From NCBI GenBank assembly GCA_021204045.1, contig JAJQAA010000062.1, positions 1 through 45,946 on the forward strand: a stretch of 45,946 bases of DNA. The letters run 5' to 3'. The notes below the pieces were generated by a model. It saw nothing but the letters and a program-made list of their open reading frames with translations, did no database searches and was not told where the DNA came from. Every line of letters starts with the position of its first letter. The first letter of the stretch is position 1. The DNA comes from Clostridiales bacterium. Lineage in GTDB: Bacteria; Bacillota; Clostridia; Lachnospirales; Lachnospiraceae. A program made the position numbers and the translations under genes. This document shows, piece after piece, positions 2,569-31,007 of the stretch.

Positions 2569-5500
2569 TACAGGCTCTGCTCCTTTCCGGTGCTGCGCTG
2601 TGGCGGCGGCACCATCTCCGCTTTTGCTTTCAGCTCATCAAGCACCGATGATCTCTCTCCTCCTTCCTGTTCTTCCGACGCTTCTTCTCTGACAGAATGA
2701 TGGTCATCCATATTAAGTTCTGCATCCAGTTCCGCCAGCCGCGCGGATTTTTCTGCCAGCTCTGCCTCCTGCGCGAACGGCTTCTTCACTTCGATACGAG
2801 CTGCCTCCTGCTGATTTGTCAGATTCTCCAGCTGTTCCTCTGCGTGCTGCAGCCTTGTGGGAATTGCCGACAGTACATTGTCAATACGGGTAAGATTACC
2901 TCTGGCGTCCGAACCCAATGCAACGCGGTGACTCATGGAGCCTTTCAAAATAACCTCGAACTCGCTTGACAGAAAATTGAAAGACAGCGACATCTTGAAT
3001 CCGCGGTACTCGCCCAGGGAGACTGTTTCTTCTCCTTTGACCTGTTTGCACATCGCAAGAATCGCTTCGCCTGCATCCTTTTTTTCCGTATAAGTCTTAT
3101 CACCCACTTTCATTCCGACAAAGCCGTCCTTTATCTGCGGATGCGCCTCCACCGTTTTGATATCCTCCGTGAACCCACGGATATACCGGTTCTGGCTTTC
3201 CATCTCTGCCGGGAAATATTTCAACAGCTTATCCTCCAGTCGATAACGCTGGCTCAGATGGTCAGCCTTCAGAACCTTCAGACGCGCCACCTCAATATCC
3301 AGATCCATCTTTTCCTTAATCAGTGGATTGCCGGCGCAGAGAGCTTTGATCTCCGCATAGGAAAGAGCCTGTTCATCTACATCGTCACAGGAGCGGACCG
3401 GTGATTTGCTGGTCATGATCTGCGAAATGAATTTCTGCTTGTTCTCCAGTGTCTGATAAAGATAGGCATCGAATGTTCCCTCTGTCACATACTGATAAAC
3501 CTGCACCTCCCGATTACTGTTTCCCTGGCGGATGATTCGTCCGTTGCGCTGCGTCATGTCCGATGGTCTCCAGCCCACATCCAGATGATGCACGGCGATC
3601 AGCCGATCCTGCACGTTCGTTCCGGCTCCCATCTTCTGGGTACTGCCGAGAAGTACCCTCACCTGACCATTTCTGACTTTAGCGAACAGCTCTTTCTTTT
3701 TTGCTTCCGTGTCAGCCGTGTGAATGAACGCCACCTCCTGCTCCGGTACACCAGCCGCGATCAGCTTGCTTCTGATGTCGTCATAGACGTTAAAGCTGCC
3801 GTCTTTTTTCGGTGTTGATAAATCGCAAAACAAAAGCTGGGTCAGTTTCTTTTCTTTCCCCTCCTCCCAGATACGCAGAACATTGTTTACACATGCATTC
3901 AGTTTACTGTTCGGGTCATCCGGCAAAAGCGGATTCATCAACCGCTGATCCAGTCCCAGCTTTCTTCCGTCCGATGTGATTTTCAGCATGTTGTCCTCCG
4001 AGGGATCGACCGCACCGCTGTGAACCTTCGCCGCGCGCTCAGACAGATTCGCTACCATTGCTTTCTGATGTTCCGACGGCTGTACCACCACCGTCTCAAA
4101 CTTTGCATCCGGCACCGGCAGGTCGAGCTGGTCACTGGTCTTGATATCCGCAACCTCCTTAAACATATTCATAAGTTCCGGCAGATTGAAGAATTTAGCG
4201 AAACGCGTCCTTGCACAGTAACCGGTGCCCTCTGGCGCAAGTTCTATTGCTGTCTGTGTTTCACCAAAGGTTGAAGCCCAGCAGTCGAAATGGGTCAGAC
4301 CCTTCTGCTGCAGCGTCCCGTACTGAAGATAGCGCATCACCGTGTAAAGCTCCGTCATGGAATTACTCACTGGAGTGCCGGTCGCGAAGACCACGCCGCG
4401 CCCACCGGTAATCTCATCCATATATCGGCACTTCATAAACATATCCTGGGATTTCTGTGCTTCCGATGTTGACAGTCCGGCAACGTTCCGCATTTTGGTA
4501 AATAGAAAAAGATTCTTGTAAAAATGGCTCTCATCCACAAAGAGCCGATCCACGCCGAGCTGCTCAAAGGTAATCACATCGTCTTTACGGTCTGCGGCAA
4601 GCAGTTTATCCAATCTGGCCTGTAATGATTTCCGGGTTTTCTCCATCTGCTTAATGGAAAAATTTTCGCCACGCTGGTATTTCATTTCACTGAGGGCGTC
4701 TGTAATCTCATCGATCTGTTCCCGCAGAAGCCGTTCCTGCCGCTCCGCGGATACCGGGATTTTCTCGAACTGACTATGCCCGATAATCACCGCGTCATAG
4801 TCACCGGTCGCGATACGCGCGCAAAACTTTTTACGGTTCGCCGTCTCGAAATCTTTTTTCGACGCGACAAGCAGCTTAGCACTTGGATAGAGCTGCAGAA
4901 ACTCATTAGCCCATTGCAGTGTCAGGTGATTCGGCACAACAAAAAGCGACTTCTGGCACAGTCCCAATCGCTTTGATTCCATCGCGGATGCCGCCATCTC
5001 AAATGTTTTTCCGGCTCCTACCTCATGCGCCAGCAGCGTATTTCCACCATAAAGGACATGCGCTATTGCGTTCTGCTGATGAGGCCGAAGTTTAATATCC
5101 GGATTCATTCCACCAAAGCGGATATGGCTGCCATCGTATTCCCGCGGCCTTGTGCTGTTAAAAAGCTCATTGTACTTCTTGCACAATGCTTCGCGGCGCG
5201 CCGGATCTTTCCAGACCCATTCCTGAAAAGCGTCCTTGATCGCCTGCTGCTTCTGCTGCGCCAGCGTTGTCTCCTTCTTGTTGAGCACGCGCTTTTGCTT
5301 TCCATCGATGTCCTCAATCGTGTCATAGATGCGGACATCTTTCAGATTTAACGTATCCTCCAGAATCCTATAAGCGTTGGCCCTCTCTGTTCCGTAGGTA
5401 GCATACGCGGCTACGTCATGCCTGCTGATGGAGCTTTTGCCAGTGACCTGCCATTCTGCGGTAAGCGGTGAAAACTTCACCTCTATCGAGCGCCGCAGAT

Positions 5501-8500
5501 AAAACGGAAGTTCAAATGTTTCCTGCATGAACTGCTGGATATAGCGTTTGTCCACCCATGTCGCACCAAGCCTTACATCAATCTCCGACGCTCCCAGTTC
5601 CTTCGGCTGTGCCTTTATGAGCGCCTCCACATTGACGGAAAACGCGCTGTCCTTCTCCGCGGCCATCTGCGCGATCCGCAGCTTCTCCCGCACATTCCCG
5701 GAAAGATATTCGTCTGTGGTCTGCCATCCTGCTTCCGGCTCTTCCGAAGCCACCGGATCTTTGAAAATTACGCCCCGCAGTTCCTCCGTGATCGAAGCAT
5801 ACTCCCCCGGCGTTCCGAGAAGCTCTGCCATATAAGGGAGATCGACCTTTCCATGCTCCCCAATAGAGACAGCCAGCGCCTCGCTGGGCGTGTCCACGCT
5901 GGTGACTTTCCGTTCCGGACGGATCGTGCGCTTTGTGAACATATCCGCCTTGCTTATGAGCTGTCCATCCTCGTCGATATTCTCCAGGGAACAGAGAAGA
6001 TAATAAGAGGAATCATCCGAAAAAGCCTGCGCGTTGCCACGGGAATTGATCAGGCCGTACTTTGCGGTATACGCATCATAGGCTGTGTTCAGTTCTTCCT
6101 GCTTTTCATGAATATTCTCCTCCGAATAATCCTCCATCTGGTAGTCGATCAGCTCATTCACGACCTGCCGCAGCTCAACCAGACCCCTCACTCTGGCCTT
6201 CGCCGTCTCATTCAATTCGACCAGACGCATAACGGAATTCTCACGGAAATAAACTTCTCCATCCACCACCGTGAAAGAATAGTTTTTTACATCCGGGTCT
6301 GCTGGTAACGTCTTCGTTGATTCCTCTGGCTCACCATACTCCATTTCCACGGCCTGATAGCTCCCACGGATATGGGATACCGCTTCATGGAGTTGCTCAG
6401 AAAGCTCTGCACCCAGAATAGGCGCGACAGTAATATCCACACCATACTGTGTGCTTTCCTCTGTGAGTGTTCCGAGTATCATTTCGGGATGATCCACAAA
6501 ATACCGGTTGACCGGATAACCTTCCGGCGACAGATCTAGATGAATCCAGTCCTGATCAATGTCAATCGGATGATCCCGCTTCTGCAGGAAGATAATGTCC
6601 GATACTACCTCGGTTCCGGCATTTGCCTTAAACGCGTTGTTTGGAAGACGGATGGCTCCCAGAAGCTCCGCCCGCTGCACCAGATATCTTCTGACATCCG
6701 GAGACTTCGCATCCATGGTATAACGGGAAGTGACGAATGCCACCACCCCGCCCGGCCGAACCTGATCCAGCGCTTTCGCAAAGAAATAATTGTGGATAGA
6801 GAATCCCAGTTTATCATAGGGCTTGTCGCTGACCTTATACTGACCAAACGGCACGTTACCCACTGCCAGATCATAGAAGTCACGCCGATCCGTTGTCTCG
6901 AATCCTGCCACTTTGATATTCGCATGCGGATAAAGCTTCTGCGCAATCCTGCCCGTAATGGAATCCAGCTCCACACCATACAGGCGGCTCCCCGCCATGG
7001 TATCCGGCAGAAGGCCAAAAAAATTCCCGACACCCATCGAGGGTTCGAGAATGTTGCCACCAGTAAAGCCCATATTTCCGACCGCTTCATAAATCGCTTT
7101 GATTACTGTCGGGCTGGTATAGTGAGCGTTCAGGGTACTGCCTCTAGCCATCTCATATTCATGCTCCGGAAGGAGTGCCTTCAGCTCCTGATATTCCTGC
7201 TCCCATCCTGTTTTATTCGGATCAAAAGCATCCGCGATGCCGCCCCATCCCACATACTGCGAGAGGATTTCCTGCTCCTCCGGCGTTGCGTTCCGTTTTT
7301 CCTCCTCCAGCGTAAACAGTGTCCGGATTGCCTCCACGTTGCGCGCGTATTTCTGCTTCGGACCGCCTTCACCCAGATGGTCATCGGTGATACGGAAGTT
7401 GTGCGCAGGTAACTGTGACTGTTCCCTCTCTGGTTCATCAAAGTGTAACCGTCGGACTTCCACATCGTAAGCCAGACGGGTTTCTTCCCCTGGGTAGACG
7501 GCGACAGTTTCCTCTGTCACTTCCGCCTGGCTATTCTGCGGATAACGCTCCACCAGTCGCAGAAAGTTTTCACGGCTCTCCGCCCGGAATACCGGATAGC
7601 TCAGCGACGGATCACGCAGCTGGACATCGAACATCCCGATGCTCTCTATCGTAAATGCTTTGCCATCCTCCAGATATACGGTATCTCCGACATGGTAGGA
7701 AAACTCTGGCATTTCCTCCTGCTCCGGTGTGTCTTCAGTCAGTTCCTCTGACGCCTCGCTTGTCTGTGCCATCACCTCCTCAATCTCGTCATCCGTAGCG
7801 TCCATGAGCTTATCAAAATCCAGATATTCCAGTTCCTTGCTGACCAGTTCCTCCTGGGAACCATACTGTCTGGTATCAAACAGCACGCCGTTCAGATAGC
7901 GTTCCAGCTTAAAATCTTCCAGGTTTACTGACGCTTCAATCGGGATATCCTCATCCGTGATCGTCGTATAACCAATGCCGATTCTGCTCATGTCGCTCAA
8001 ATCTGCCGGTACGCTGAACTCCTCCATGTAGTATTCATCGAGCAGTTCCTTTGCTCTCTCAAGCGGCGAACGTGCCGCCGCTTCCTGCGCGCGTTCGATC
8101 AGCTCGTCTCGATAATCCTCCGCAACCCATCTGTCTGAAAAATATACATGATTGCCGTCGATATCCACATAATAATCGCCTGTCTGGTCATCCCAGATGG
8201 AGTACGCACCATCGCTGCCAAATTCCGTTTCAATCACATGGAAGCGGTCCTGGTTTTCTGCTTCCTCCGCGGCGATCCGCTCCACATCTGCCATTACCTG
8301 ACGGACAAAGGAGCTTTCCTTATCCGGGTCAACCAGTTCGCCATTCACAATACCGCGCCGCTCCAGTTCTTCCCTGACCGCCACAGGGTCGATATCGGGG
8401 AAAGGGTCGTCTTCTTGCTGCTCATCTTTTCCTTCATACAGCGGGCGTATTCTGAGCTGGTAATAGGTCTCATTGAAAACCGCCTGATTCATTCGAGCGT

Positions 8501-11078
8501 GGAAATCAGCATCATCATAATAAAAATGATAAAGGTTGATATTATTAAGGAACGCAATCGCTCTTTTAATAGCCGCATCTGCTTCGGTTCTTGCTTCCTG
8601 CACATCAGAGTTTTTACAGGCGTTCTGATATGGGATGTCCCTGACAACCGTATCCAGCACAAAGGGTAGAAAATGCTCAAAAGGATCACGGAAAGCGGGA
8701 GGGGTCGTAGCCCGCTGTATTTCCGTTTCCTGGGCAGCCGCTTTTTGCTCCTCCGTATTATTCTTTGCCTCTCCGGAGCGAATCTCCGCAAGTTGTCCTT
8801 TCTCCTTGTCTGTAAGATATCTGTCTTCCTTTATCAGAGCGCTGATCCGCTTCGCCGCAATGCTCCATGACATTCTGACAGGGATACAGTCTATTTTTTT
8901 GAACGTGATTCCCTTACCATCGTGATCCTCAAAGCTATGGGATTTATTCGCAAACGCGCCGCTGTGGCCGCCTGTTCCATACTCGTCACGGAGAAAGTCC
9001 GCCAGTTCTTTCGCGGAGTGATCCTCTGTGAAATATGAATAAATCCGCCCTTTTCCTCCCGAAACAGAGCTTCCATGGGTCAGCGCCTCGTCAATTTCAT
9101 CCTCGGTAATGAAATATCCGGGCTGCGGCATCTCGGTCATATCAGAGGAATACTGCCTCCATGTCATTCCCAATTCCCGCAGGCTCCGATGCAGTTCCGG
9201 AACCTTGTGATAATGGAAACGAAGCACGCTCGGTTCCTGCTCATAGACCATGGTGAAAATCATCATGTCACGCGTCACTGCAGCCAACACTTCCGGATCA
9301 GCCAGTGCCTTTGCAAAACATGCGGTTTCGTCAGGATACCCGCCGCCACGGTACGGCTCCAGTGAAGTCAGCAGTCCTGCACCTTCTGTTATTTCCGAAA
9401 AATCATGCCGAAGATACCAGAGCTTCTCAGCGATCTGAGTGCGGGCATAACCCGGCGTTTCCTCGATCTCCACATTGGTGGCAAACTGACCATCGTCCAG
9501 CAACTCTCCAATGCGTTCTGCCGCATCCTCCCATGGCAGGAACATCCCTGGAGCTGCGTCTCTCGCGTGGTCGCCTGGCGCTAGCCAGATCCCTTCTTCC
9601 GCAAACCATACAGACAGCCTTTCGGAACCGGTAAATAGCCCCATGCCGCCCCGGTACTCCATTCGCAGGAACGCCGCCAGTTCCGTAACGGACTTTCCCT
9701 TCATATACTCGGCAGTGACGGCCATGCGGCTCTTATCGCTGCTGCCGCCCAGCCGGAGGACATTATCAATGTCATTTTGCGGGACGGAAAAAGCGGAGGG
9801 CATTTCGCTCTCCGCTTCCTGGTCGATAGCCTTGATCTGCTCTGCTTCTGTGGGGAAGAAAAGCGTCATCTGCTCATAAACCGGTTCCAATAAAGCTGCC
9901 TGTGAATCATTAACCCTTTCCGATTCTGTCTCCGGTTCCGGCTCCGGCATTTCCTTAGTCAGTTGTAAACCAGCTCTGTCAGTACGGTTTCCTCCGCCTG
10001 TGCTTTCAGGCTGTTCATATGCTGCACCCAGGCCATCTGCTGCGTCATCTTGTCCGGTGCCGGGTTCTTCTGCAGCAGCTCCTTCATCAGCTGATCGACC
10101 CTCCGGTGCGCCGTCTCGTCGATCTCCCTCAGATGCGGGAACAGCTGCTCGGTCATCGACAGGTCGCTGTACAGGATCGGACGGTGCTCTTTCAGGAATG
10201 CCCGGCGCATCCTGCCGTACTTGCCCAGCGGCTCCTGGCTGGTCTCTTTCAGTGTGATATTCGGGATCTGGTAATCCCCGTTCTGTCTGTAAGTCAGTTC
10301 CATAGTCTCTACTCCTTTCCATGCGTCTGCTGCGTTCATAGCTGCGAATCGTAATTTCGATTTCCCGGAAGATCTGTCCGGATACCTCGCTGACCGCCGT
10401 CCCCAGGGCATTGACAGCTTTTCGGGTATTATAATCGAAGATCGCTGAAAAATCATCCGCTTCAAAATAATCATCCGGATTTCCCATACAGCGGCTTAAA
10501 ATCTCATATTTGATACTTGGCGTCGCCGCGTTGAGGAAAGACATCCTCCTGTTGTCTTCATCATACTCCTCCAGGAAGCTGTCCGCAACCATATCGGCAA
10601 ATTCATCCTCATGATCCTGCCAGTAGTCAATCGCCATCCAGCTGGCAATATTTTCGATCTGTACATCAAACGGTGCTGCAGAAGACACATCAAATACCGC
10701 CGACAGTGCTTCCTGCACCGGCCGCACATACTCATCCTCCAGCCTCCAGAGGTTGACATCACGAGAGTTCTTCCGTTCCCCTGTGTCCGCAACATCAAAG
10801 ACATAACGAAGCCGCGGATAGTCTCCACTGTTATCAATCAGAGCGATACCACTGGAACCGCGCTTCACATAACGCCGCATGGTATCGTTCCACAAATCAT
10901 AAGCAGCGCAGGCCGTAGCATCTGGACGCTGGGCAAAGATCATCATCTGGTCTTCAAACGAATATTTGCTCATGCGGCCGGCGGTCTTAAGGAAAGCCGT
11001 CCACCTCTCCCGGCTTCTTGTCAGTCCGGCGGTGGTATCCTCGGCCATCGCGCTGTAATATTCAAGTTTTGCAGGCAT
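2568..11078 (-). CDS. Giant polyvalent protein: ArdC-like N-terminus, N6-adenine methylase, SNF2 helicase
   Basis: The 2836-aa protein is typical of Tn1549-family elements. The N-terminus (about 7-90) resembles the ArdC antirestriction N-domain. Residues 259-374 form an Arg/Gly/Pro/Asp-rich linker that encodes TnpV in another frame. Next come two related units (near D-I-D-N-V-L and D-E-I-D-E-A-L) and YodL/LPD-like modules. A class I methylase follows, with motif I EPSMGVGNFFG (about 1341) and motif IV GNVPFG (about 1404), and then an SNF2-type helicase with HEVGAGKT (about 2019), DESH (about 2180) and QRNGRIIRQG (about 2506). Such proteins are thought to travel with DNA and protect it from restriction. 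The tail carries the shared ERSSVLDEL motif. The ATG has GGAGGAGG upstream. Confidence 0.93.
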   Translation of the reverse strand: MPAKLEYYSAMAEDTTAGLTRSRERWTAFLKTAGRMSKYSFEDQMMIFAQRPDATACAAYDLWNDTMRRYVKRGSSGIALIDNSGDYPRLRYVFDVADTGERKNSRDVNLWRLEDEYVRPVQEALSAVFDVSSAAPFDVQIENIASWMAIDYWQDHEDEFADMVADSFLEEYDEDNRRMSFLNAATPSIKYEILSRCMGNPDDYFEADDFSAIFDYNTRKAVNALGTAVSEVSGQIFREIEITIRSYERSRRMERSRDYGTDLQTERGLPDPEYHTERDQPGAAGQVRQDAPGIPERAPSDPVQRPVDDRAAVPASEGDRRDGAPEGRSADEGAAAEEPGTGQDDAADGLGAAYEQPESTGGGNRTDRAGLQLTKEMPEPEPETESERVNDSQAALLEPVYEQMTLFFPTEAEQIKAIDQEAESEMPSAFSVPQNDIDNVLRLGGSSDKSRMAVTAEYMKGKSVTELAAFLRMEYRGGMGLFTGSERLSVWFAEEGIWLAPGDHARDAAPGMFLPWEDAAERIGELLDDGQFATNVEIEETPGYARTQIAEKLWYLRHDFSEITEGAGLLTSLEPYRGGGYPDETACFAKALADPEVLAAVTRDMMIFTMVYEQEPSVLRFHYHKVPELHRSLRELGMTWRQYSSDMTEMPQPGYFITEDEIDEALTHGSSVSGGKGRIYSYFTEDHSAKELADFLRDEYGTGGHSGAFANKSHSFEDHDGKGITFKKIDCIPVRMSWSIAAKRISALIKEDRYLTDKEKGQLAEIRSGEAKNNTEEQKAAAQETEIQRATTPPAFRDPFEHFLPFVLDTVVRDIPYQNACKNSDVQEARTEADAAIKRAIAFLNNINLYHFYYDDADFHARMNQAVFNETYYQLRIRPLYEGKDEQQEDDPFPDIDPVAVREELERRGIVNGELVDPDKESSFVRQVMADVERIAAEEAENQDRFHVIETEFGSDGAYSIWDDQTGDYYVDIDGNHVYFSDRWVAEDYRDELIERAQEAAARSPLERAKELLDEYYMEEFSVPADLSDMSRIGIGYTTITDEDIPIEASVNLEDFKLERYLNGVLFDTRQYGSQEELVSKELEYLDFDKLMDATDDEIEEVMAQTSEASEELTEDTPEQEEMPEFSYHVGDTVYLEDGKAFTIESIGMFDVQLRDPSLSYPVFRAESRENFLRLVERYPQNSQAEVTEETVAVYPGEETRLAYDVEVRRLHFDEPEREQSQLPAHNFRITDDHLGEGGPKQKYARNVEAIRTLFTLEEEKRNATPEEQEILSQYVGWGGIADAFDPNKTGWEQEYQELKALLPEHEYEMARGSTLNAHYTSPTVIKAIYEAVGNMGFTGGNILEPSMGVGNFFGLLPDTMAGSRLYGVELDSITGRIAQKLYPHANIKVAGFETTDRRDFYDLAVGNVPFGQYKVSDKPYDKLGFSIHNYFFAKALDQVRPGGVVAFVTSRYTMDAKSPDVRRYLVQRAELLGAIRLPNNAFKANAGTEVVSDIIFLQKRDHPIDIDQDWIHLDLSPEGYPVNRYFVDHPEMILGTLTEESTQYGVDITVAPILGAELSEQLHEAVSHIRGSYQAVEMEYGEPEESTKTLPADPDVKNYSFTVVDGEVYFRENSVMRLVELNETAKARVRGLVELRQVVNELIDYQMEDYSEENIHEKQEELNTAYDAYTAKYGLINSRGNAQAFSDDSSYYLLCSLENIDEDGQLISKADMFTKRTIRPERKVTSVDTPSEALAVSIGEHGKVDLPYMAELLGTPGEYASITEELRGVIFKDPVASEEPEAGWQTTDEYLSGNVREKLRIAQMAAEKDSAFSVNVEALIKAQPKELGASEIDVRLGATWVDKRYIQQFMQETFELPFYLRRSIEVKFSPLTAEWQVTGKSSISRHDVAAYATYGTERANAYRILEDTLNLKDVRIYDTIEDIDGKQKRVLNKKETTLAQQKQQAIKDAFQEWVWKDPARREALCKKYNELFNSTRPREYDGSHIRFGGMNPDIKLRPHQQNAIAHVLYGGNTLLAHEVGAGKTFEMAASAMESKRLGLCQKSLFVVPNHLTLQWANEFLQLYPSAKLLVASKKDFETANRKKFCARIATGDYDAVIIGHSQFEKIPVSAERQERLLREQIDEITDALSEMKYQRGENFSIKQMEKTRKSLQARLDKLLAADRKDDVITFEQLGVDRLFVDESHFYKNLFLFTKMRNVAGLSTSEAQKSQDMFMKCRYMDEITGGRGVVFATGTPVSNSMTELYTVMRYLQYGTLQQKGLTHFDCWASTFGETQTAIELAPEGTGYCARTRFAKFFNLPELMNMFKEVADIKTSDQLDLPVPDAKFETVVVQPSEHQKAMVANLSERAAKVHSGAVDPSEDNMLKITSDGRKLGLDQRLMNPLLPDDPNSKLNACVNNVLRIWEEGKEKKLTQLLFCDLSTPKKDGSFNVYDDIRSKLIAAGVPEQEVAFIHTADTEAKKKELFAKVRNGQVRVLLGSTQKMGAGTNVQDRLIAVHHLDVGWRPSDMTQRNGRIIRQGNSNREVQVYQYVTEGTFDAYLYQTLENKQKFISQIMTSKSPVRSCDDVDEQALSYAEIKALCAGNPLIKEKMDLDIEVARLKVLKADHLSQRYRLEDKLLKYFPAEMESQNRYIRGFTEDIKTVEAHPQIKDGFVGMKVGDKTYTEKKDAGEAILAMCKQVKGEETVSLGEYRGFKMSLSFNFLSSEFEVILKGSMSHRVALGSDARGNLTRIDNVLSAIPTRLQHAEEQLENLTNQQEAARIEVKKPFAQEAELAEKSARLAELDAELNMDDHHSVREEASEEQEGGERSSVLDELKAKAEMVPPPQRSTGKEQSL
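9959..10303 (-). CDS. tnpV: TnpV-like protein encoded inside the methylase-helicase gene (different frame)
   Basis: A 114-aa frame starts MELTYRQNGDYQIPNITL, continues with LGKYGRMRRAFLKEHRP and ends TVLTELVYN. These are the diagnostic blocks of the TnpV family (N-terminal G-D-Y-x-I-P, central Y-G-R-M-R-R-x-[FY]-L-K-E-H-R-P, C-terminal E-x-V-x-x-E-[LI]-[VI]-Y). The ATG at 10303 is preceded by AAAGGAG eight bases upstream, so it can be translated independently. It lies wholly inside the giant gene, in the frame shifted by one base, opposite its disordered linker (residues about 259-374). Function of TnpV is unknown. Both products look genuine: the linker matches those I remember in homologues, and the TnpV sequence is too family-like to be chance. 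Confidence 0.85.
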   Translation of the reverse strand: MELTYRQNGDYQIPNITLKETSQEPLGKYGRMRRAFLKEHRPILYSDLSMTEQLFPHLREIDETAHRRVDQLMKELLQKNPAPDKMTQQMAWVQHMNSLKAQAEETVLTELVYN

Positions 11079-11095: not shown

Positions 11096-11308
11096 TTACG
11101 GGTCAATATCCGGATACAGGGGAAGTGCATCGAACTCCTCATCCGTAATCTTTTCCAGTTTATCCAGTACAGAATCTGTGAGAACACGCAGCTGACGCTC
11201 CGATTTTGTCAGCTCCCCTCGCATGATATTTAATGCCGCTATCAGCCCTCGGCGTGTGCCGGGACTGTAGAGCATCATCAGTGTCAGTTCTTTCCCTGTG
11301 AAATTCAT
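11096..11308 (-). CDS. TTRAP-type transposon-transfer assisting protein
   Basis: The 70-aa protein starts MNFTGKELTLMMLY and has the family's L-x-K-L-E-K-[IM]-T-D-E-E-F-D-A-L-x-L-Y block near its C-terminus. TTRAP proteins are encoded beside the SNF2-methylase in many CTn elements and are only annotated by association with transfer. The start overlaps the stop of the YodL/DUF4316 gene by four bases (ATGA), with AAAGAGG six bases upstream. The stop is 17 bases before the giant gene's ATG. Biochemical role unknown. Confidence 0.85.
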   Translation of the reverse strand: MNFTGKELTLMMLYSPGTRRGLIAALNIMRGELTKSERQLRVLTDSVLDKLEKITDEEFDALPLYPDIDP

Positions 11309-11883
11309 TCCAGACCTCTTTCCTCTCTGTGTTTTACCGGCTTCATCGGTATTTCCGATTCCGGCATATTTTTCAGCTTTTCCAGGACGGAAGACCGCTC
11401 CTCATTGACAGCTTCTTTCCTTCCATTATTCAGGATGCCGTCCAGCATGGAATAGTCATCCTCCATTGCCATTTCTGCATTTTTCAAATGGTTTTCCGGG
11501 TGAAAATGGGGAAGCTCCCGGAAGCCGATGCTGTCCACATAATAACAGGTTACAACACCAGCCTGTTTCAGCGCCACGATGTCGCTGACAGATAGCGAGT
11601 GCCCGGTATAATCCGCTGGATGGTCAATATTGAATTTCATATAAAGTTCATCCAGACTGGTGCCTGCCGGGAGCCTGCCTGTGTATACCACTGCGTAATG
11701 ATCAACTTCCGGCTCCCTGCCCTGCTTTGCCAGCCAGGTATCATTCATAAAACGGTCATTTGTCGTCTCGTCCGTTCGCTTCAGCTGCAAAATCGCATAG
11801 CTGTCGGTCTGGCTCTCCAAAAAAGCCTGAAGGTTCTCCTGGCTTTTCGCACCGTGTACCTCATCCCACGCCTGAATATTCAT
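11305..11883 (-). CDS. YodL/DUF4316-type element protein with SVL tail motif
   Basis: This 192-aa protein begins with a YodL-like unit (AILQLKRTDETTNDRFMNDTWL, shortened here to its core: Y-A-I-L-Q-L-K-R-T-D-E-T) that pairs in this family with a DUF4316 segment (about 80-130, with L-x-V-S-D-I-V-A-L and V-D-S-I-G-F-x-E-L). The C-terminal 31 residues start ERSSVLEKL, nearly the same as the tail of the giant protein. It overlaps its neighbours on both sides by four bases, so it sits in a tightly coupled operon. YodL domains occur in polyvalent proteins thought to enter the recipient; a role in defence evasion is inference. Confidence 0.82.
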   Translation of the reverse strand: MNIQAWDEVHGAKSQENLQAFLESQTDSYAILQLKRTDETTNDRFMNDTWLAKQGREPEVDHYAVVYTGRLPAGTSLDELYMKFNIDHPADYTGHSLSVSDIVALKQAGVVTCYYVDSIGFRELPHFHPENHLKNAEMAMEDDYSMLDGILNNGRKEAVNEERSSVLEKLKNMPESEIPMKPVKHREERGLE

Positions 11884-17881: not shown

Positions 17882-19567
17882 TTATGGCAGCCTGCCATAA
17901 CATAAAAAGTGCTCCTGCCAGTACGCTGTCTCGATAGACGTATACTGGATCGGATTGCCGCAGTGAATCATCATCCCATCACCAACGTATATGCCGACAT
18001 GGCTTGCGCCGCTGGTATTATAAGTTCCCTGGAAAAACACCAGGTCTCCCGGCTGTGCCTCACTCGCAGAAACCACGGTACAAAGGTTCCGCAGCCCATT
18101 GGCTGTCTGCCTGCCCACCGACCACCCATTGCTGCAGTTATTGATCACCCAGGATACAAAACCCGAACAATCGAAACTGGTGCTCGGACTGGAACCGCCC
18201 CATACATACGGATACCCAAGGTATTTCTCAGCTTCCCCGATCATGTTGGCAAACCTTTCATCGGTCAATGCTTCCGGCGGGATCTCATAGGTTTCATAAT
18301 CGGAAAAAACCGCATAAATGCTGTCCTCAAACAGATATCGCTTGTTGCCGTAATTCTGCATTATCAGCTCATAACGGGATGTCTGTTCTTCATCCATCCT
18401 GGCAGCAATCAGCGATTCCAGGCCATGATTCTCCAACGTAACAATCAGGATATAATAATCATCCTCATCGTCATCACCCTCGATCACTTTTACTTTCAAT
18501 TTCAGCGTATATTGGGCGTTAAAAAGGCGGGCCAGCTCTTCCTGGACTTCTTCTTCCGTGTAATCCTCAAAGATCACCGTCAGATAAGCAGCCAGTTCAA
18601 ACGGGTTGTGGCCGATCTCATCCAGATCATAGCGGTATTCATCGTACCCGGGATACTCGGATTCAATATTATTAATCCGATTTCGCAGGGCAGTTTCCAT
18701 CGCCGTGTAATCCGCCTCCGCTGCCAGGATATCTTCATCTTCCGCGATATAAGTGGTCCCTAAAAGGCCATTCATGGAACCCTGCAGCAACAATGGGAAA
18801 GCACTCAGGGAACATAACAGTGCGATCACCACGGCCGCACAGATCAGGATAATTATAAGGCCCTTATTGTGTTCCGCAACAAACTCCCCAATGACTGCAA
18901 TGATATCCTTTGTTTCTTTCGCTGCCTTTGCCGTACCTTTCGCAGTGGAACCATATCCCGCCGCCGTACTGGCTGCACCTCCGGCACTCCGGCCTGCCGC
19001 CCGCGCCGCGGCATATTTCTTCTTAATCTCCCGTTTCTGCATCCATCTGGAAAACGGGTTGGATGCCGCTTCCGGGTTTTCCGCCAGATGTTTCTGCCAG
19101 AGAGCTTCCACGTTGGCATTATCTGATTTCCGGACCAGCTTTTCCGCTTTCTCATATTTCCTCAGCTTGTGGGAATAGACGGCCTCCCCTGTCACATGGG
19201 CAGCGCCCTCGGCAGCTTCCTCTCCTTTGCGGGCGGCCTGCACACCGGTGTTATCATCCTCATAGCGGCTGATCTCCCTATGGGCAGAACCGGATACCGT
19301 TTGCAGCGGAGCTTTGACAACAGCCTGTTTCGTCCTTGTCGGCTTCGGAGCCTCCACCGTCTCAAACTCCGCTTTCCCGAACCGCAGCTTCTTTCTGGCA
19401 TTTGCCGCAGAGGAAGACTCCCGGCGCAGCTTATGCTTTGCCGGGAGCTTTTGATTGGTTTTTTCTGCCTTTTCCGCAGCCTTTTCCGCTTTCTCAGCGG
19501 CCTTTGCCACCTTTTGATCCCCCAGATCATCCTCTGTAAAGTGAAGATGAACCGGTTTTTTTGCCAT
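17882..19567 (-). CDS. C40 (NlpC/P60) peptidoglycan peptidase of the conjugation system (CD1108 type)
   Basis: 561 residues. A long basic and coiled N-terminal cytosolic part (about 1-230) is followed by one membrane helix (G-L-I-I-I-L-I-C-A-A-V-V-I-A-L-L, about 235-255), a stalk domain, and the C-terminal NlpC/P60 domain. The catalytic Cys is Cys467 in SFDCSGFVSWV and the His is in G-A-S-H-V-G-I-Y-V-G. Such enzymes open the cell wall for the transfer channel. The ATG overlaps the VirB4 3' end by 41 bases and follows GGAGG. No N-terminal cleavable signal is seen; the topology is a type II-like anchor. Confidence 0.9.
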   Translation of the reverse strand: MAKKPVHLHFTEDDLGDQKVAKAAEKAEKAAEKAEKTNQKLPAKHKLRRESSSAANARKKLRFGKAEFETVEAPKPTRTKQAVVKAPLQTVSGSAHREISRYEDDNTGVQAARKGEEAAEGAAHVTGEAVYSHKLRKYEKAEKLVRKSDNANVEALWQKHLAENPEAASNPFSRWMQKREIKKKYAAARAAGRSAGGAASTAAGYGSTAKGTAKAAKETKDIIAVIGEFVAEHNKGLIIILICAAVVIALLCSLSAFPLLLQGSMNGLLGTTYIAEDEDILAAEADYTAMETALRNRINNIESEYPGYDEYRYDLDEIGHNPFELAAYLTVIFEDYTEEEVQEELARLFNAQYTLKLKVKVIEGDDDEDDYYILIVTLENHGLESLIAARMDEEQTSRYELIMQNYGNKRYLFEDSIYAVFSDYETYEIPPEALTDERFANMIGEAEKYLGYPYVWGGSSPSTSFDCSGFVSWVINNCSNGWSVGRQTANGLRNLCTVVSASEAQPGDLVFFQGTYNTSGASHVGIYVGDGMMIHCGNPIQYTSIETAYWQEHFLCYGRLP

Positions 19568-23733: not shown

Positions 23734-24234
23734 TTATCTGGATGCCGCCTTCACCCTATCTTTGGGTTTTGCATCGTTGCGGCCAGCATCTGGAACCGCC
23801 GCCTTCTTATCGGAAAGGTCGGAAAGTACAGAGCCACGATCTTTTTGTTTATATGCTTCCATCATCGCTTTCAACTCCGTATTGGGAACCATCCTGCTCT
23901 CATTAGCCCAGATATTCCTTCCGTTCTCGTCCTTGCCTTTCAGGAATGGGCGTGACACCTTCGTTTCCCCGCCTGCCGGCAACTTCATCCAGACGCCTTT
24001 TCCGAACTGATTCTCATGAACCATCTTCGGGGATACTACAAAAGACTCCCATGATCTGCTGTCATTCGGGTCCTGATTGGGAATCTTAATCTCTACCAGC
24101 TCCTTGCCCGCTTTTGACACGAACGGCTCTTCCACAAGTCCCTTTCCGAATTTAATCGTCACCTCCTCCCGCTTGTGGTAGGTCCGTTCTGCCTTGGCCG
24201 CAACGTCTTCCCGTGGCATTTTTTCTTCTGCCAT
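23734..24234 (-). CDS. Conserved element protein with SVL tail motif
   Basis: About 166 residues, soluble. The core reads E-E-V-T-I-K-F-G-K-G-L-V-x-E-P-F-x-S-K-A-G-K-E-L-V-E-I-K-I-P-N, followed by a region rich in charged residues and V-P-N-x-E-L-K-A-M-M-E-A-Y-K. I remember close relatives encoded after VirD4 in CTn elements but cannot name the family; a single-strand-binding-like barrel is a guess. The last 35 residues start DRGSVLSDLSDKK, the tail motif shared with four other element proteins. ATG at 24234 follows AAGGAGG; the frame overlaps the end of virD4 only if the longer start is used. Confidence 0.75.
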   Translation of the reverse strand: MAEEKMPREDVAAKAERTYHKREEVTIKFGKGLVEEPFVSKAGKELVEIKIPNQDPNDSRSWESFVVSPKMVHENQFGKGVWMKLPAGGETKVSRPFLKGKDENGRNIWANESRMVPNTELKAMMEAYKQKDRGSVLSDLSDKKAAVPDAGRNDAKPKDRVKAASR

Positions 24235-24247
24235 TGTTTCCTCCTTC

Positions 24248-26008
24248 TCATACTTCAATGACTTCATACTCATCTCTGGCTTTCAATTTCAGCTTCCGAT
24301 TCAAAAACATCTCGATATTGAACTCATTCTTTTTGTCACAATCCGAGGTGTATTTATAATTCGGATGCTTTGTCAGATCGTACTTGTCCGATAAAAACGG
24401 CCGCACGCCACGCAGTTGCAGGATACATTTGCTGCCATCCAGGACCGCAAGCTCATCGACAGACAACAATTCATGCCCCAGTTTTTGAAAATTTGTTCCA
24501 TAGCTTGGACTATTCCCGCGGGTGTCCGAAGTGTTGTAACTGTCGATTGTCTCTTTCCCCAGCGCCTGGTTCAGCTCCTTTAAGGTGGTCGGCTCTGAAC
24601 CACCCAGAAAGATGCGGGAATCCATGTTGCCGATGATGGTGTCGGCGTTATCCTTATAAATCGCTTTCAGCTGACTCTGCGCCTGCAGCACCAGACAAGC
24701 CGAAATTTCGCGGCTACGGATGGTCGCTACCAGCTTTTCCAGGTTGGGAATCTGTCCGATGTTCGCACATTCGTCGATCAGGCAGCGCACGTGAACCGGC
24801 AGCCTGCCTCCATACACATCATCCGCTTTTTCACATAATAAATTGAAAAGCTGCGTGTAGATCATAGAGATCAGGAAATTAAATGTGCTGTCCGTATCTG
24901 ACATGATTAAAAACAGAGCTGAGCGCTTATCACCCAGGGTATCCAGCTCCAGTTCATCATATGCTGTGATCTCCCTCAGCTCCTGAATATCGAACGGCGC
25001 AAGTCGCGCGCCACAACTAATCAGGATCGACTTTGCCGTCTTCCCGGCGGCTAATTTGTAAAGTCTGTATTGCCGTCCGGCAAAATTTCCTGGCTTGCGT
25101 TTTTCCAGATCTTCAAACATCAGATCCACCGGATTCTGGAACTCCTCATCATCCTCGCGCACCTCCATGGCATTCAAAAACTCCAGCAGAGTCGCAAAAT
25201 TCTGTTCCTCCACCGGAGCTTCGTAATGAATATAAGCAATCAGTGCCGTGTACAGCAGCTTCTCACTTTTTTCCCAGAACTCGTCGCCGCCTTTTGACTC
25301 TCCCTTCGTGTTTGCAATCAACGTGGTGACCAGCTTTAAGATATCCTTCTCGCCATGGAGATAAGCAAATGGATTGTAATGCATGGACTTCTTAAAATTG
25401 ATGGTATTAAAGACCTTAATCCGATAGTGATAATGCTGGAGCGCGTTGCCGCACTCCGTTAAAACAGAACCTTTTGGGTCAGTAATTACAAATGAAACCG
25501 GATATTTTTTTGAAGAACACTGTAATAAATTCGGTTTCAACCAGAACCTTGTCTTGCCGCTTCCGGAGCCGCCTACGATCAGCACGTTCTTATTTCGCGC
25601 GTTGGCAGGATTCGAGGGCCGGTTGTTCATCATGAGCTGTTCGCTTTTCGTAAGAATGATATTATTCTCGAACACCGGATCGACAAACGGTTCAATGTCC
25701 TTTGCCGTCCCCCACCGTGCTGAACCATACTCTGTTCCATGGCGATACTTTTTTGCGTTCTTTCCTTTTAGGTACACCGCCAGCCGGAGCGCCACGCCGC
25801 ACAGAAGACCAACCATCAAATCAAACGGATGAAAACTTGGCAGCGGATTGGAAAATACCAGTGAGAAGGAAGAAATCAATGACATTATCTTCTCCGAAGT
25901 ATCGATACCATCCATCAGTCTCCACACTTCCCCCAGATTCGTGGCAAAAAGCCCCAGGATCACATAGGGCAAATGCAGGATAAACTGTTTCTTTGTCTTC
26001 TCACTCAT
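24248..26008 (-). CDS. VirD4/TraG-like type IV coupling ATPase
   Basis: The 586-aa protein links the relaxosome to the channel. Two N-terminal membrane segments (about 10-27 and 60-78) precede the ATPase, with Walker A V-G-G-S-G-S-G-K-T (about 142) and Walker B V-R-C-L-I-D-E-C-A-N-I-G (about 406), then I-I-G-N-M-D-S-R-I-F-L-G-G and S-C-x-L-R-G. The ATG overlaps the PcfB-type stop by four bases. A coupling protein selects substrates by C-terminal signals, which makes it a candidate receptor for the SVL tail motif. Confidence 0.93.
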   Translation of the reverse strand: MSEKTKKQFILHLPYVILGLFATNLGEVWRLMDGIDTSEKIMSLISSFSLVFSNPLPSFHPFDLMVGLLCGVALRLAVYLKGKNAKKYRHGTEYGSARWGTAKDIEPFVDPVFENNIILTKSEQLMMNNRPSNPANARNKNVLIVGGSGSGKTRFWLKPNLLQCSSKKYPVSFVITDPKGSVLTECGNALQHYHYRIKVFNTINFKKSMHYNPFAYLHGEKDILKLVTTLIANTKGESKGGDEFWEKSEKLLYTALIAYIHYEAPVEEQNFATLLEFLNAMEVREDDEEFQNPVDLMFEDLEKRKPGNFAGRQYRLYKLAAGKTAKSILISCGARLAPFDIQELREITAYDELELDTLGDKRSALFLIMSDTDSTFNFLISMIYTQLFNLLCEKADDVYGGRLPVHVRCLIDECANIGQIPNLEKLVATIRSREISACLVLQAQSQLKAIYKDNADTIIGNMDSRIFLGGSEPTTLKELNQALGKETIDSYNTSDTRGNSPSYGTNFQKLGHELLSVDELAVLDGSKCILQLRGVRPFLSDKYDLTKHPNYKYTSDCDKKNEFNIEMFLNRKLKLKARDEYEVIEV

Positions 26009-26478
26009 ATATCACGCTCCTGCACTTTCTCACGCACCTTTTTCGGCAACACCGCTACCAGTTCTTTAAACTTATTGAGCTGTGCAAGGACACTGGTCTT
26101 TTCCTCCCGATTCAGTCGCTTTGCCTGATACTCGTTAAATGCTGCTGCAAGTGCATCCGCGTCGCGAGCTTTGAAAAAAACCAGATATTTCGGCGGCCTC
26201 ACGCTCTGATCCTTTTTGATGGCATAATCAATTCCGTATTTATTGGCAATCCGCTCAAAATCCCGGATGCCCGTTGTGGAAATATCCAGGCTCGACACGC
26301 CCTGTCCCTGCCCGATCAGCTTTTTCACTGACTGCTTTCCGTGGGGGATTTCTTCTTTTGATTTCTCTTTGGCACGGTACTGCATATATTTCCGATAACC
26401 CGTCATAAGCGTCCGTCCCGTCAGCTTCGTTGTCGAAATCATCAGGTTAATTGTTTTATTTTCCACTTCCTCCTGCAT
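26005..26478 (-). CDS. PcfB/DUF3801-family protein with SVL tail motif
   Basis: The 157-aa protein starts MQEEVENKTINLMISTTKLTGRT, the PcfB/DUF3801 opening, and contains D-F-E-R-I-A-N-K-Y-G-I-D-Y-A-I and a ferredoxin-like Y-L-V-F-F-K-A-R-D-A-D-A-L. In related conjugation systems PcfB-type genes accompany the coupling protein. The C-terminal 32 residues begin EKTSVLAQLNKFK, the motif shared by five element proteins. GAGGAGG precedes the ATG, and the stop overlaps the VirD4 start (ATGA). Confidence 0.85.
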   Translation of the reverse strand: MQEEVENKTINLMISTTKLTGRTLMTGYRKYMQYRAKEKSKEEIPHGKQSVKKLIGQGQGVSSLDISTTGIRDFERIANKYGIDYAIKKDQSVRPPKYLVFFKARDADALAAAFNEYQAKRLNREEKTSVLAQLNKFKELVAVLPKKVREKVQERDI

Positions 26479-27224: not shown

Positions 27225-27247
27225 TAAAAAAACACCCTGCGGGTGCT
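27225..27247 (-). terminator. Terminator after parB
   Basis: Minus-strand GCACCC-GCA-GGGTG followed by TTTTTTT, 18 bases after the parB stop and before the ribosome binding site of the acidic protein. Confidence 0.8.
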
Positions 27248-27262
27248 TGCTTCATGGTCATA

Positions 27263-28189
27263 CTATCTGTTCTGTTGTCTCTCTTTCTTTTTCTGCCACT
27301 GTTCCAGCAGCCGGATAATGGTATCCTCCATCTGTTTGGGTGTATAAGAACGGGGGAAATATTTCCGCAGTACATCCTGCTTAATTGTCACCTTATCCAG
27401 GTCACTTTTCTTCTCTTCGTTCATAATGTCTTCCATCACTTCCAGCGTACACTTCCCTTCCTGACTGAGTTTCTTTAAACGCAGTGCCTGGGAAAGCGAC
27501 GGCATGGCCTGTGCATAATCCATTGCTTCCAGAAGATCCTGCTGTTCTTCCGGTTTCAAATAGGACAGTTCTACCGCGGGATTGAACGCGATCTTTTTCG
27601 TATCCACCATCTCCAATAACTCGGGAATCAGTTCTGTGAGACGGATGAAGCGCTGAACCTGCTTTGCACTATCATTCGCTTCTTTTGCGATAACATCTAC
27701 TGAACGTAACTTCTGGCCAAATTGGCCAGAAGTTAAATCTGTCCTTTGACCCTGATGATTTATTGCTCCCAGCTTCATCTTATAAGCAAATGCTCTCTCA
27801 CTCGGCAGCACCGTCTCCCGTTGCAGGTTACTGTCTACCATCAAAATCGTGGCGGCATCATCGTCCAGATTTCTCACAATGACAGGCATTGTCTTATTTC
27901 CGATCAACTCACAGGCATGATGTCTTCTGTGTCCTGCAATCAATTCATACCCTCCTTCCGGGAGAGGACGCGCTATCGCCGGGGCAAGCACTCCGTATCT
28001 GGCGACGCTCTCAACCGTTCTCTGCATAGCTTCATCATCCAGCACCTTGAACGGGTGATTTTTAAACGGGCGCAGTTCTGACAGCGGAATCTCCTGCACT
28101 TTCTCCAACTTTTCATCAGCCCTACTTTCCTCAGTGGAAAAAATATCATCGTAGCTGGTCAAGCTGATGTTTGTGCCTTTTTTCGGCAT
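27263..28189 (-). CDS. parB: ParB/Spo0J-family partition protein
   Basis: 308 residues. The N-terminal ParB domain has L-R-P-F-K-N-H-P-F-K-V, G-Y-E-L-I-A-G-H-R-R-H-H-A (about 83-95) and R-N-L-D-D-D-A-A-T-I-L-M-V-D-S-N-L-Q-R-E. A helix-turn-helix region follows (about 170-200), with Q-V-Q-R-F-I-R-L-T-E-L-I-P-E-L-L. It overlaps parA by 44 bases and uses GGAGG inside the parA end. Together with ParA and RepA it suggests that the excised element replicates and partitions. A 29-base near-perfect palindrome lies within the gene (27707-27735). Confidence 0.92.
   Translation of the reverse strand: MPKKGTNISLTSYDDIFSTEESRADEKLEKVQEIPLSELRPFKNHPFKVLDDEAMQRTVESVARYGVLAPAIARPLPEGGYELIAGHRRHHACELIGNKTMPVIVRNLDDDAATILMVDSNLQRETVLPSERAFAYKMKLGAINHQGQRTDLTSGQFGQKLRSVDVIAKEANDSAKQVQRFIRLTELIPELLEMVDTKKIAFNPAVELSYLKPEEQQDLLEAMDYAQAMPSLSQALRLKKLSQEGKCTLEVMEDIMNEEKKSDLDKVTIKQDVLRKYFPRSYTPKQMEDTIIRLLEQWQKKKERQQNR
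27707..27735. repeat. 29-base near-perfect palindrome inside parB
   Basis: Arms of 13 bases (27707-27719 and 27723-27735) match perfectly around AAT; the core is TTCTGGCCA / TGGCCAGAA. It encodes T-S-G-Q-F-G-Q-K-L in ParB. It does not resemble the chromosomal parS consensus. A centromere-like or autoregulatory site is possible. Confidence 0.75.
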
Positions 28190-28973
28190 CCTTTAACACC
28201 TCCTTTGTCAATGCCCGGTAGGCTTCCGCTACTTTTCCTTTCGGGTCATGCTCATAAATGCTTTTGCCCTCCGCGCTGGTCTCGGCGGCACGGACAGAGC
28301 GGGGAATATCCGCGGAAAATACCTTGATCTTACTTCCGTAGGTTTCCCGGATAAGGCTGCTGATTTCTTTCGCATAATTTGTCCGCGAATCTACCATTGT
28401 CAGGAGAATTCCCTCAATCCGCAGTTTCTGGTTAATCTGTCGCCTCACCTTGCTTACCGTCTGGAGAAGCTGCTCCAGACCTTTGGCGGAAAGATACTGC
28501 GCCTGCACTGGGATCAGCACATTATCTGCCGCCGCCAGAGCGTTGATTGTCAGCATCCCCAGGCTCGGCATACAGTCCAGCAGAATAAAATCATATTCCC
28601 GCCGCACAGTATCCAGATACTGCTTTAAAATCGTCTCGCGGCTCATGGCATTGACCAGCGACACCTCCAGACCGGACAGCATGATATTTGCCGGCATCAG
28701 GTCAACACCCTCCTCATGGTGCAGGATACCTTCTCCGGGTGAAATAACTTCCTCTGCCTTGACCTTCTCCATCATTTCTGCCAACGTGGGAGAAAGATCA
28801 TCCGGCTTCGGATAGCCTAACGCGATAGTCAGACTTGCCTGCGGATCTGAATCAACCAGCAATACCTTCTTCCCTTCCTGTGCCAGTCCCACACCGAGAT
28901 TCTCGCACGTTGTGGTCTTTCCGACCCCGCCTTTCTGGTTTGCGACTGCCAGGACAGTGGCTTTCTTTGCCAT
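28146..28973 (-). CDS. parA: ParA/Soj-family partition ATPase
   Basis: 275 residues with the deviant Walker A N-Q-K-G-G-V-G-K-T-T (about 12-21), switch D-S-D-P-Q-A-S-L-T and Walker B Y-D-F-I-L-L-D-C-M-P-S-L-G. It should form DNA-bound gradients that position the excised element with ParB. GGAAG lies upstream of the ATG and the gene follows repA by 27 bases. Standard length and intact motifs. Confidence 0.94.
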   Translation of the reverse strand: MAKKATVLAVANQKGGVGKTTTCENLGVGLAQEGKKVLLVDSDPQASLTIALGYPKPDDLSPTLAEMMEKVKAEEVISPGEGILHHEEGVDLMPANIMLSGLEVSLVNAMSRETILKQYLDTVRREYDFILLDCMPSLGMLTINALAAADNVLIPVQAQYLSAKGLEQLLQTVSKVRRQINQKLRIEGILLTMVDSRTNYAKEISSLIRETYGSKIKVFSADIPRSVRAAETSAEGKSIYEHDPKGKVAEAYRALTKEVLKDAEKRHKHQLDQLR

Positions 28974-29000
28974 TTTCTCACTTCCTTTCTTTTCATAGTT

Positions 29001-29975: not shown

Positions 29976-29984
29976 GATCACGCC

Positions 29985-31007
29985 TCACATGCTCAGCGCC
30001 GGCTCATTCCTCGAAACAACTGCTCCACTCTTTCTTGGAACCACATTTGCTTTATACTCCTCCAGGCTTTTCAAAACGGAAGGTCTTTCTTCCTCTTTTC
30101 CCCTCATACGAACATCAAACTTCTCCGCCAGCTCGAACACCTTCTCCTGACAGTCATAATGATAAACCCGGTTCGTAAGCCGCTCCTCAGGTGGCACCTG
30201 CGTCTCATTAATCTCGCCTACCATTGCTTCCATTTCCTGATAAGTCATAAGCCCATTATCAGGAACCATAATGACCTCATGAATCGAGGAAGGAAGAATA
30301 AAGAAATTTCCGTTCATCTTTTCCTCCGCCGTATCCATAAACCCCGGATATGCGATCACGCCGGCTCCGTTCATCTTTTCCGGATTCGTTGCCACAAAAA
30401 GATCTGGTGCGCCGCCGACCTCCTCTGGTTCCATTCCCATGAGTTCAGCAATCACTTCATTCATGCCCAGGATAACAAACGGCTGTCTTTCCTGCGCGGA
30501 TTTCAGAGCATCCTGATGAAGCTGCTCCACGCTGATACCGTAACCATGCAGCGTCTCATTTGTAATCAGGATACTGGCTGCACTGCCGTCAACCTGTCCC
30601 ATGTCAATATAATATACCAGGCACATATCCTCCATATCATGGTGCGGAATTGTTAAAAGTCTGTCCTCATTTTCCTCCCTTCCAACGAGCTGGACAGTCA
30701 GCCTTTCTTTCACCTGATCGTAATCTTTAATACTATTGAGCGGGATCTGCATTTCGCGTGCCTGCGCTTCACGCACAGTCTCGATAATGCCTGTCAGAAT
30801 CTGGCGATAATCCTGTCCCTCTTCAAATCTGTGGTGAAAAACTTCCAGATTTAAAGAAACCGCCATAATGCCGTCTTCGGGTTTCACAGAAATTCCATAG
30901 TACGACTTACCCTGTAGCTTCTGGACATTTCTCACAGATACCTCATTTCCAGGCATCATTGCTTCGAGATCCTGCTTCACCTTGTCCAAGAACTCTCTGT
31001 ACTCCAT
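29985..31007 (-). CDS. DUF5688-family protein with SVL tail motif
   Basis: The 340-aa soluble protein starts MEYREFLDKVKQDLEAMMPG and contains V-Q-K-L-Q-G-K-S-Y-Y-G-I-S-V, L-E-V-F-H-H-R-F-E-E-G and M-C-L-V-Y-Y-I-D-M, which fit DUF5688, a family common in Clostridial elements and also on chromosomes. Function is unknown. The C-terminal 34 residues start ERPSVLKSLEEYK, the tail shared with four other element proteins. It lies ahead of repA in the first operon of the element, with a purine-rich stretch before the ATG. Confidence 0.82.
   Translation of the reverse strand: MEYREFLDKVKQDLEAMMPGNEVSVRNVQKLQGKSYYGISVKPEDGIMAVSLNLEVFHHRFEEGQDYRQILTGIIETVREAQAREMQIPLNSIKDYDQVKERLTVQLVGREENEDRLLTIPHHDMEDMCLVYYIDMGQVDGSAASILITNETLHGYGISVEQLHQDALKSAQERQPFVILGMNEVIAELMGMEPEEVGGAPDLFVATNPEKMNGAGVIAYPGFMDTAEEKMNGNFFILPSSIHEVIMVPDNGLMTYQEMEAMVGEINETQVPPEERLTNRVYHYDCQEKVFELAEKFDVRMRGKEEERPSVLKSLEEYKANVVPRKSGAVVSRNEPALSM

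Follow-up and report, generated by a model that had tools for sequence, protein, structure and literature searches.

Why should five proteins of one mobile element, unrelated along the rest of their length, end in the same short sequence? The question is raised by a stretch of 45,946 nucleotides from a Clostridiales bacterium (contig JAJQAA010000062.1; the whole stretch is referred to as the window), which by its Pfam gene content carries a conjugative element of the Tn1549 type. A preliminary description had noted the motif [ED]-[RK]-x-S-V-L-x-x-L near the C-termini of these five proteins and had suggested a common sorting tag, either a signal for export through the conjugation channel or a docking peptide. 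Comparison with related elements supports a common tag and extends it beyond the five proteins; the tag may serve in export or only in docking, with VirD4, PcfB, or another protein as the candidate receptor. We consider it probable that the tail is a modular substrate tag of the type IV secretion systems built on PcfB and VirD4 (Tn1549-type). The support comes from its link to elements with a short PcfB, from contrasts within the DUF5688 and ArdA families, from the effector-like nature of its carriers, and from relaxases that have its terminus or the whole tail.

A common tail on five proteins of the window

In the translated window, the five motif instances lie exactly where they had been placed, all on the minus strand. 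The motif starts 29–35 residues from the C-terminus, as described, and is followed by 20, 22, 26, 23, and 25 residues in the order of Table 1. The strict form, [ED][RK]xSVLxxL, has these five matches and no sixth among the 334 window open reading frames (ORFs) of at least 40 amino acids (aa). When the terminal 60 residues of each of the 41 non-overlapping window genes are shuffled (20,000 rounds), strict matches average 0.00085 and never exceed 1, against the five observed. A six-frame search of the bacterium's own genome with a profile of 32 tails, which contains the five window tails, likewise returns the five window proteins and no sixth (E ≤ 0.05). Two details required adjustment: the protein first given as 166 aa carries the tail but is 179 aa long when counted from its first start codon, and the motif as first written, although present at all five ends, is too narrow, the broader form being [RK]-x-S-[VIL]-x-x-x-L. 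Across 32 diverse tails, the serine and the leucine are the sole invariant residues; the serine probably caps a helix, as Pro-Ser precedes the hydrophobic pattern.

Two Pfam families, DUF4316 (PF14195) and DUF3801 (PF12687), have matches that cross the motif but are filed as separate domains of unknown function. PF14195 covers residues 129–171 of the window YodL protein, motif included, and the PF12687 match in the window PcfB runs through the motif. The former is matched by the YodL protein alone, being unreported at E ≤ 0.001 for the other four window carriers, and neither is reported at that threshold on the SNF2, 179-aa, or DUF5688 carriers. The DUF5688 tail lies outside its Pfam domain (residues 3–285). 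Among 16 PcfB proteins, the tail serine is one of 10 invariant columns. A tail similar to that of the window 179-aa protein is found on a 183-aa protein of another genome (G043, L292), about 5 kb from a PcfB gene.

Distribution among elements, hosts, and protein families

The comparison set consists of 21 stretches of 40–60 kb from 15 related genomes, picked by DUF3801 and DUF4316 hits; since both profiles cross the motif, this selection favours PcfB and YodL/DUF4316 carriers, but not other families. Host genes (417) were taken from 20 stretches of 20 kb in one of the 15 related genomes. The 1299 genes of the 22 stretches contain the strict motif 11 times (five in the window and six elsewhere), always at most 45 residues from the end, and none of the 417 host genes has it. 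The relaxed form occurs 36 times in the 1299 genes, 29 of them terminal, against five in the host genes, none of which is terminal. With a 14-column tail profile and a cut of 8.2, against a top score of 6.9 for host tails, 66 tail proteins falling into 20 sequence clusters are found, at least one in every one of the 22 stretches, with the core ending 19–29 residues from the C-terminus. The penultimate residue is glutamate in 40 of the 66, the linker is often basic, and the last residue is R in 26, L in 17, V in 8, and I in 6. A profile search of element C-termini, as proposed in the preliminary description and run here on the 21 stretches and Tn1549, thus finds the tail recurring on 20 clusters. 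The equal frequency outside elements that would have spoken against a tag is not seen, as 0 of 417 host genes reach the profile score.

The profile was trained on element tails, so that element scores are not independent; the independent checks are the strict motif, the host genes, an element outside the training set (F88, with four helix tails), the DUF5688 contrast, and the relaxase ends. Nor can orthologs and related elements be treated as independent samples, which makes p-values optimistic except where families were counted. Gene picking loses some genes: PcfB was recovered in 17 of the 22 stretches, and one stretch excludes it. The loose pattern, S[VILM]xxx[LM] close to the C-terminus, was rejected as a sole criterion, being too weak. 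Among host genes it matches 19 of 417, and among untagged element genes 36 of 958; an ArdA from elsewhere (L262) and the DUF5688 paralog of the own genome (profile score −4.8) match it too.

The tail is tied strongly to elements with a short PcfB. Across 150 genomes of the bacterial family, 76 of 95 tail hits (E ≤ 1e-3) have a DUF3801 gene no more than 60 kb away, counted from 121 listed DUF3801 places; 29 of these 76 are the DUF3801 gene itself, and the non-DUF3801 hits nearby number 47 of 66. On three long contigs, all 14 hits (8 of 8 for non-DUF3801 proteins) fall within DUF3801 zones, which make up 12–17% of the sequence. The phylum sample has the tail in 7 of 299 genomes, all seven belonging to the 16 with DUF3801, and four of its 12 matches outside the window are not on PcfB. 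Of 80 named loci with PcfB, 48 have at least one tail; their 1353 genes give 57 hits, 11 of them on proteins outside the 140–200 aa range of PcfB, and one internal match. In Tn1549 itself (pMG2200), the tail is found on PcfB, the YodL polyvalent protein, and a 314-aa protein, and is absent from VirD4, VirB4, TrbL, the topoisomerase, and the relaxase.

Two protein families end differently according to their surroundings. DUF5688 is found in 140 of the 150 family genomes and is thus mainly a chromosomal family. The 20 copies without a nearby DUF3801 hit all score ≤2.0 and none is tailed; they include the second DUF5688 gene of the host genome (G000:C57:98587-99498, L112), which lies outside the window. 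Near a short PcfB, 8 of 9 copies exceed the best host score (six at 7.9–17.5, the window copy at 22.9, and E72 at 20.1), against 0 of 11 near a larger DUF3801 and 1 of 2 on contigs without DUF3801. Beside a short PcfB, ArdA is about 70 residues longer than elsewhere and has a tail-like end by the loose pattern in five of five intact fetched copies, compared with 1 of 13 elsewhere and a host background of 19 of 417. Left out of this count were L245 and L266 (interrupted), L261 and L269 (no intact ArdA frame), and further ArdA frames near PcfB without a locus. The interrupted frames of L245 (G144) and L266 (G127) lie beside PcfB, and in G144 a separate 64-aa ORF has the tail.

The carriers are soluble, largely DNA-acting or anti-defence proteins, with family names taken from one to three Pfam-scanned representatives per cluster. 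Within the 22 stretches, the profile detects the tail on 15 of 17 PcfB proteins, and the remaining two have a form that is diverged but still identifiable. The ArdC/YodL/LPD polyvalent proteins are tailed in 13 of 14, one having a DnaG-type zinc finger (primase finger), and the SNF2 polyvalent proteins in 6 of 8; of the two exceptions, one stops early in the helicase region and the other ends like the second element type described below. All members of DUF3848/3849 (4/4), a 318-aa family (5/5), LPD1 (3/3), and LPD34 (2/2) are tailed, as are 3 of 5 DUF6674, 3 of 4 DUF5688, 1 of 6 SpoVG-like proteins, and 1 of 30 relaxases, together with single ArdA, DUF3560, and other proteins. The tail is shared, close to the C-terminal end, by unrelated proteins of a single system, as would be expected of a type IV secretion substrate signal, and its carriers overlap the early-phase proteins that PMC5512222 predicts to enter the recipient together with the DNA. 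A tblastn search against 50,697 phage records matched LPD34 in one record, ArdA in one, YodL in four, and DUF3848/3849 in 11; the matches listed are unannotated fecal 'Bacteriophage sp.' pieces, and no conclusion is drawn from them.

The window element encodes PcfB, VirD4, TrbL/VirB6, PrgI, VirB4, NlpC/P60, DUF4315, and CD1107, and further a topoisomerase, MobC, the relaxase, ParB, ParA, and RepA; the same transfer gene set is annotated in Tn1549 of pMG2200. Adjoining the element (33994-37017, minus strand) is a gene for a 1007-aa TOTE conflict system protein with AEP-TOTE primase, DEAD/ResIII helicase, and PLD-like domains, and a 683-aa ORF at 39810-41861 (minus strand), which has no Pfam match, ends in a long PDEPDKPD-type repeat.

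Table 1. Tails, their carriers, and related genes in the window
Feature	Position	Strand	Basis
Tail of 2836-aa SNF2/helicase polyvalent protein (ERSSVLDELKAKAEMVPPPQRSTGKEQSL)	2571..2657	-	Window translation, Pfam, profile search
Tail of 192-aa YodL/DUF4316 protein (ERSSVLEKL...EERGLE)	11308..11400	-	Window translation, Pfam, profile search
Tail of 179-aa protein (DRGSVLSDL...KAASR)	23737..23841	-	Window translation, profile search
Tail of PcfB/DUF3801 (EKTSVLAQL...VQERDI)	26008..26103	-	Window translation, Pfam, profile search
Tail of DUF5688 protein (ERPSVLKSL...NEPALSM)	29988..30089	-	Window translation, profile search
SNF2-like helicase polyvalent protein, carrier	2568..11078	-	Pfam
YodL/DUF4316 protein, carrier	11305..11883	-	Pfam
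179-aa protein, carrier, overlaps 3' end of VirD4 gene	23734..24273	-	No known Pfam family
VirD4-type coupling protein, no tail; candidate receptor	24248..26008	-	Pfam, translation
PcfB (DUF3801), carrier, candidate adaptor, 4-base overlap with VirD4 start	26005..26478	-	Pfam
DUF5688 protein, carrier	29985..31007	-	Pfam
Relaxase (PF03432), without helix core, end ...EQEQSQKNR	53..1459	-	Pfam, translation

Relaxases and a second transfer type

The absence of the motif from the relaxase had been noted at the outset as a reason for caution. It holds for the window relaxase (end ...EQSQKNR) and for that of Tn1549, but a group of MobA/MobL relaxases has the whole tail. The MobA/MobL sample comprises 46 matches and 30 loci, of which 28 were judged (L323, L329, and 16 matches without a locus were left out). 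Four pass the profile cut (L313, L314, L315, and L317), the first two lying within 10 kb of a DUF3801 gene, and six match the loose pattern, L318 and L333 among them; the core of L316 is changed, and a sister group of nine has a diverged core with the same QQ[ND]MEL end. As some relaxases are tailed but the window relaxase has no core, the caution is reduced, not removed.

Relaxases without the helix share the E-[R/L] end of the tail. Scored with a profile built from the final eight residues of 47 tail proteins, core-less relaxases have a median of −0.8 (n = 23) and other element proteins one of −10.6 (n = 850; Mann–Whitney p 1.6e-6). An E-[RLVI] end is found in 32 of 56 tail proteins and 8 of 24 relaxases; it also closes 28 of 573 remaining soluble proteins, 7 of 296 membrane proteins, and 16 of 374 proteins of the host. 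We note that the window element's ParA and ParB (27263-28973, minus strand) have the termini ...DQLR and ...RQQNR, which resemble the relaxase-type end, as does the ...RDQER terminus of several ParB-like proteins from other elements.

Eight stretches contain a larger DUF3801 protein, and six of these (F127, F110, F101, F148, F106, and F2) have no tail above the best host score. In F138 (L301-L302, joined coordinates 19631-20425) and F102 (L303-L304, joined coordinates 19314-20195), the larger DUF3801 keeps SV-x-x-x-L, with no tagged cargo in either stretch. A C-terminal arginine closes 67 of 171 soluble proteins in ten stretches (these eight and two with a short PcfB, F5 and F88), versus 16 of 202 host proteins. 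Within the eight, 9 of 16 soluble families mostly end in arginine versus 0 of 7 membrane families, against a host background of 22 of 242 soluble proteins; the soluble families (L293-L304, L310-L312) include relaxase, DUF5688, ParB-like, DUF3801, and polyvalent protein. The residues V/I/M-A-E precede the end in twelve proteins, half of them DUF5688, versus 1 of 374 host genes. The C-terminal arginine looks like a different tag, one used by a sister system. Several arginine-ended families of the larger-DUF3801 elements share VAE...R.

Interpretation and comparison with known systems

The tail has three parts: an amphipathic helix [RK]-x-S-[VIL]-x-x-x-L, probably capped by its serine; a linker, basic for the most part; and a terminus in which an acidic residue often precedes R, L, V, or I. 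As a substrate tag of PcfB–VirD4 systems, it would bind a receptor in the coupling complex, whether VirD4, PcfB, or both. The tagged early-phase proteins (anti-restriction, methylase-helicase, primase-finger, and others) would be threaded into the recipient, travelling with or beside the relaxase–DNA complex. Export of tagged proteins into the recipient is likely. The tail of PcfB itself could reflect co-transport as a co-substrate, or could be a self-bound latch on the receptor site that cargo mimics.

Several observations weigh against this interpretation. The window and Tn1549 relaxases, like most relaxases examined, are without the helix core, and topoisomerase III, a plausible passenger, is without a tail in both the window and Tn1549. 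PcfB regularly carries the tail, whereas the position of its gene suggests a part of the machine. The link to the short PcfB has exceptions: the F5 element has a short PcfB, yet no tail above the best host score; the E145 DUF5688, near a short PcfB, scores 2.4; F138 and F102 carry the core on the larger DUF3801 protein alone, 47–48 residues from the end; and 19 of the 95 hits in the family genomes fall outside the 60-kb range, 16 of them on contigs that have no DUF3801 and three at a greater distance from it. Four of the five ArdA tails fall below the profile cut (scores −0.3 to 5.6). Finally, the counts for PcfB and YodL/DUF4316 are biased by selection, and the sampling covers mostly one bacterial family.

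In a more general form, which we hold to be as likely as not, a portable C-terminal label may let Gram-positive conjugative elements recruit almost any soluble product to the mating channel. The label would have dialects per transfer system, the helix with an E-[R/L] end for PcfB–VirD4 and a bare C-terminal arginine in the sister type, and some mobilizable relaxases would wear the label of their helper.

Among the alternatives, the one that survives best, though we hold it unlikely, makes PcfB the receptor: its folded domain would bind cargo tails, its own tail would be an internal pseudo-substrate holding the site shut until cargo, as a mimic of the PcfB helix, competes for it. Cargo tails do occur together with a short PcfB that is itself tailed, and the two larger-DUF3801 elements that keep the core on DUF3801 alone look as if the helix had been PcfB's first, but a VirD4 receptor fits equally well. 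A search for solved-structure relatives of PcfB gave four matches at E 0.19–0.75, none convincing. Doubtful as well, and slightly the weaker, is a docking peptide that acts without export, gathering element proteins at a hub (relaxosome, ParB complex, or PcfB–VirD4 platform) in the donor or the recipient. The tail on 15 of 17 recovered PcfB genes, and its diverged form in the other two, would suit a presumed platform part, and the tail dialects suggest one shared partner; yet ArdA and ArdC, which would be expected to act in the recipient, are carriers, and so are some relaxases, whose export is required. We think it improbable that the tail is a stability or proteolysis tag (degron or anti-degron) setting element protein levels, since a C-terminal position on many soluble proteins would fit, but the tails on some relaxases and PcfB, the tail-less soluble element proteins, and the link to one transfer-system type would be left unexplained. 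Convergent or low-complexity charged ends, i.e., basic helical C-termini of no particular meaning, are very improbable: the linker is charged and variable and the loose pattern has its 19 matches in 417 host genes, but shuffles, host genes, and internal positions do not yield the tail, DUF5688 is untailed outside these elements, and the serine codon falls largely in one class.

That codon is of the TCN class in 63 of 66 tails, against a background of 62%; the same class holds the majority in each of the 20 clusters, many of which consist of one protein. The bias favours descent of one module over independent convergence, and the tail has probably spread by common descent. The serine codons of the five window tails are TCC, TCT, TCG, AGT, and TCC, and the neighbouring codons differ. 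Such synonymous differences indicate that the spread is not recent, and recent copying of one tail inside the window was dropped as an explanation. Tails of unrelated proteins within one element are slightly more alike than chance predicts, in the core (0.363 vs 0.323 by label permutation, 0/2000) and in the last six residues (39 of 2000 label permutations as high), as would follow if the tails of an element were matched to a single receptor or exchanged sequence.

In the literature searched, no translocation signal is described for this Gram-positive system type, and the delivery of proteins by elements of the Tn1549 type is so far a prediction. No earlier description of the tail was found there, subscription papers, supplements, and preprints aside, the available parts of PMC5512222, PMC12857230, and PMC8406263 included. 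A readable tag would turn the question of which proteins travel with DNA into a sequence search, and the delivered protein set of many gut elements could, if the label is indeed portable in the general sense given above, be read from sequence. Such a tag would account for how anti-restriction and priming proteins might act immediately on entering a new host, and it would be a target for substrate-recognition tests in a large group of gut mobile elements that includes the vanB carrier.

The substrates of the Agrobacterium VirB/VirD4 system (VirF, VirE2, and VirD2) have net basic C-terminal signals with repeated arginines, in which no Ser-x-x-x-x-Leu helix is known. Like these, the present tail is short, C-terminal, often basic in its linker, and found on unrelated proteins of one type IV system; unlike them, it has a helix core and an E-[R/L] end and belongs to Gram-positive elements. 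Several proteins of the F-type plasmid pED208 besides the relaxase reach recipients (PMC8406263), but that system is Gram-negative, and the available part of the paper describes no common C-terminal motif. There is also overlap in content with the polyvalent proteins of phages and conjugative elements, for which delivery with the DNA has been proposed, no shared tail or signal being named in the available part of PMC5512222. That set shares YodL, ArdA, ArdC, and LPD domains and the helicase with the tail carriers, whereas the tail described here is also found on PcfB, DUF5688, and some relaxases.

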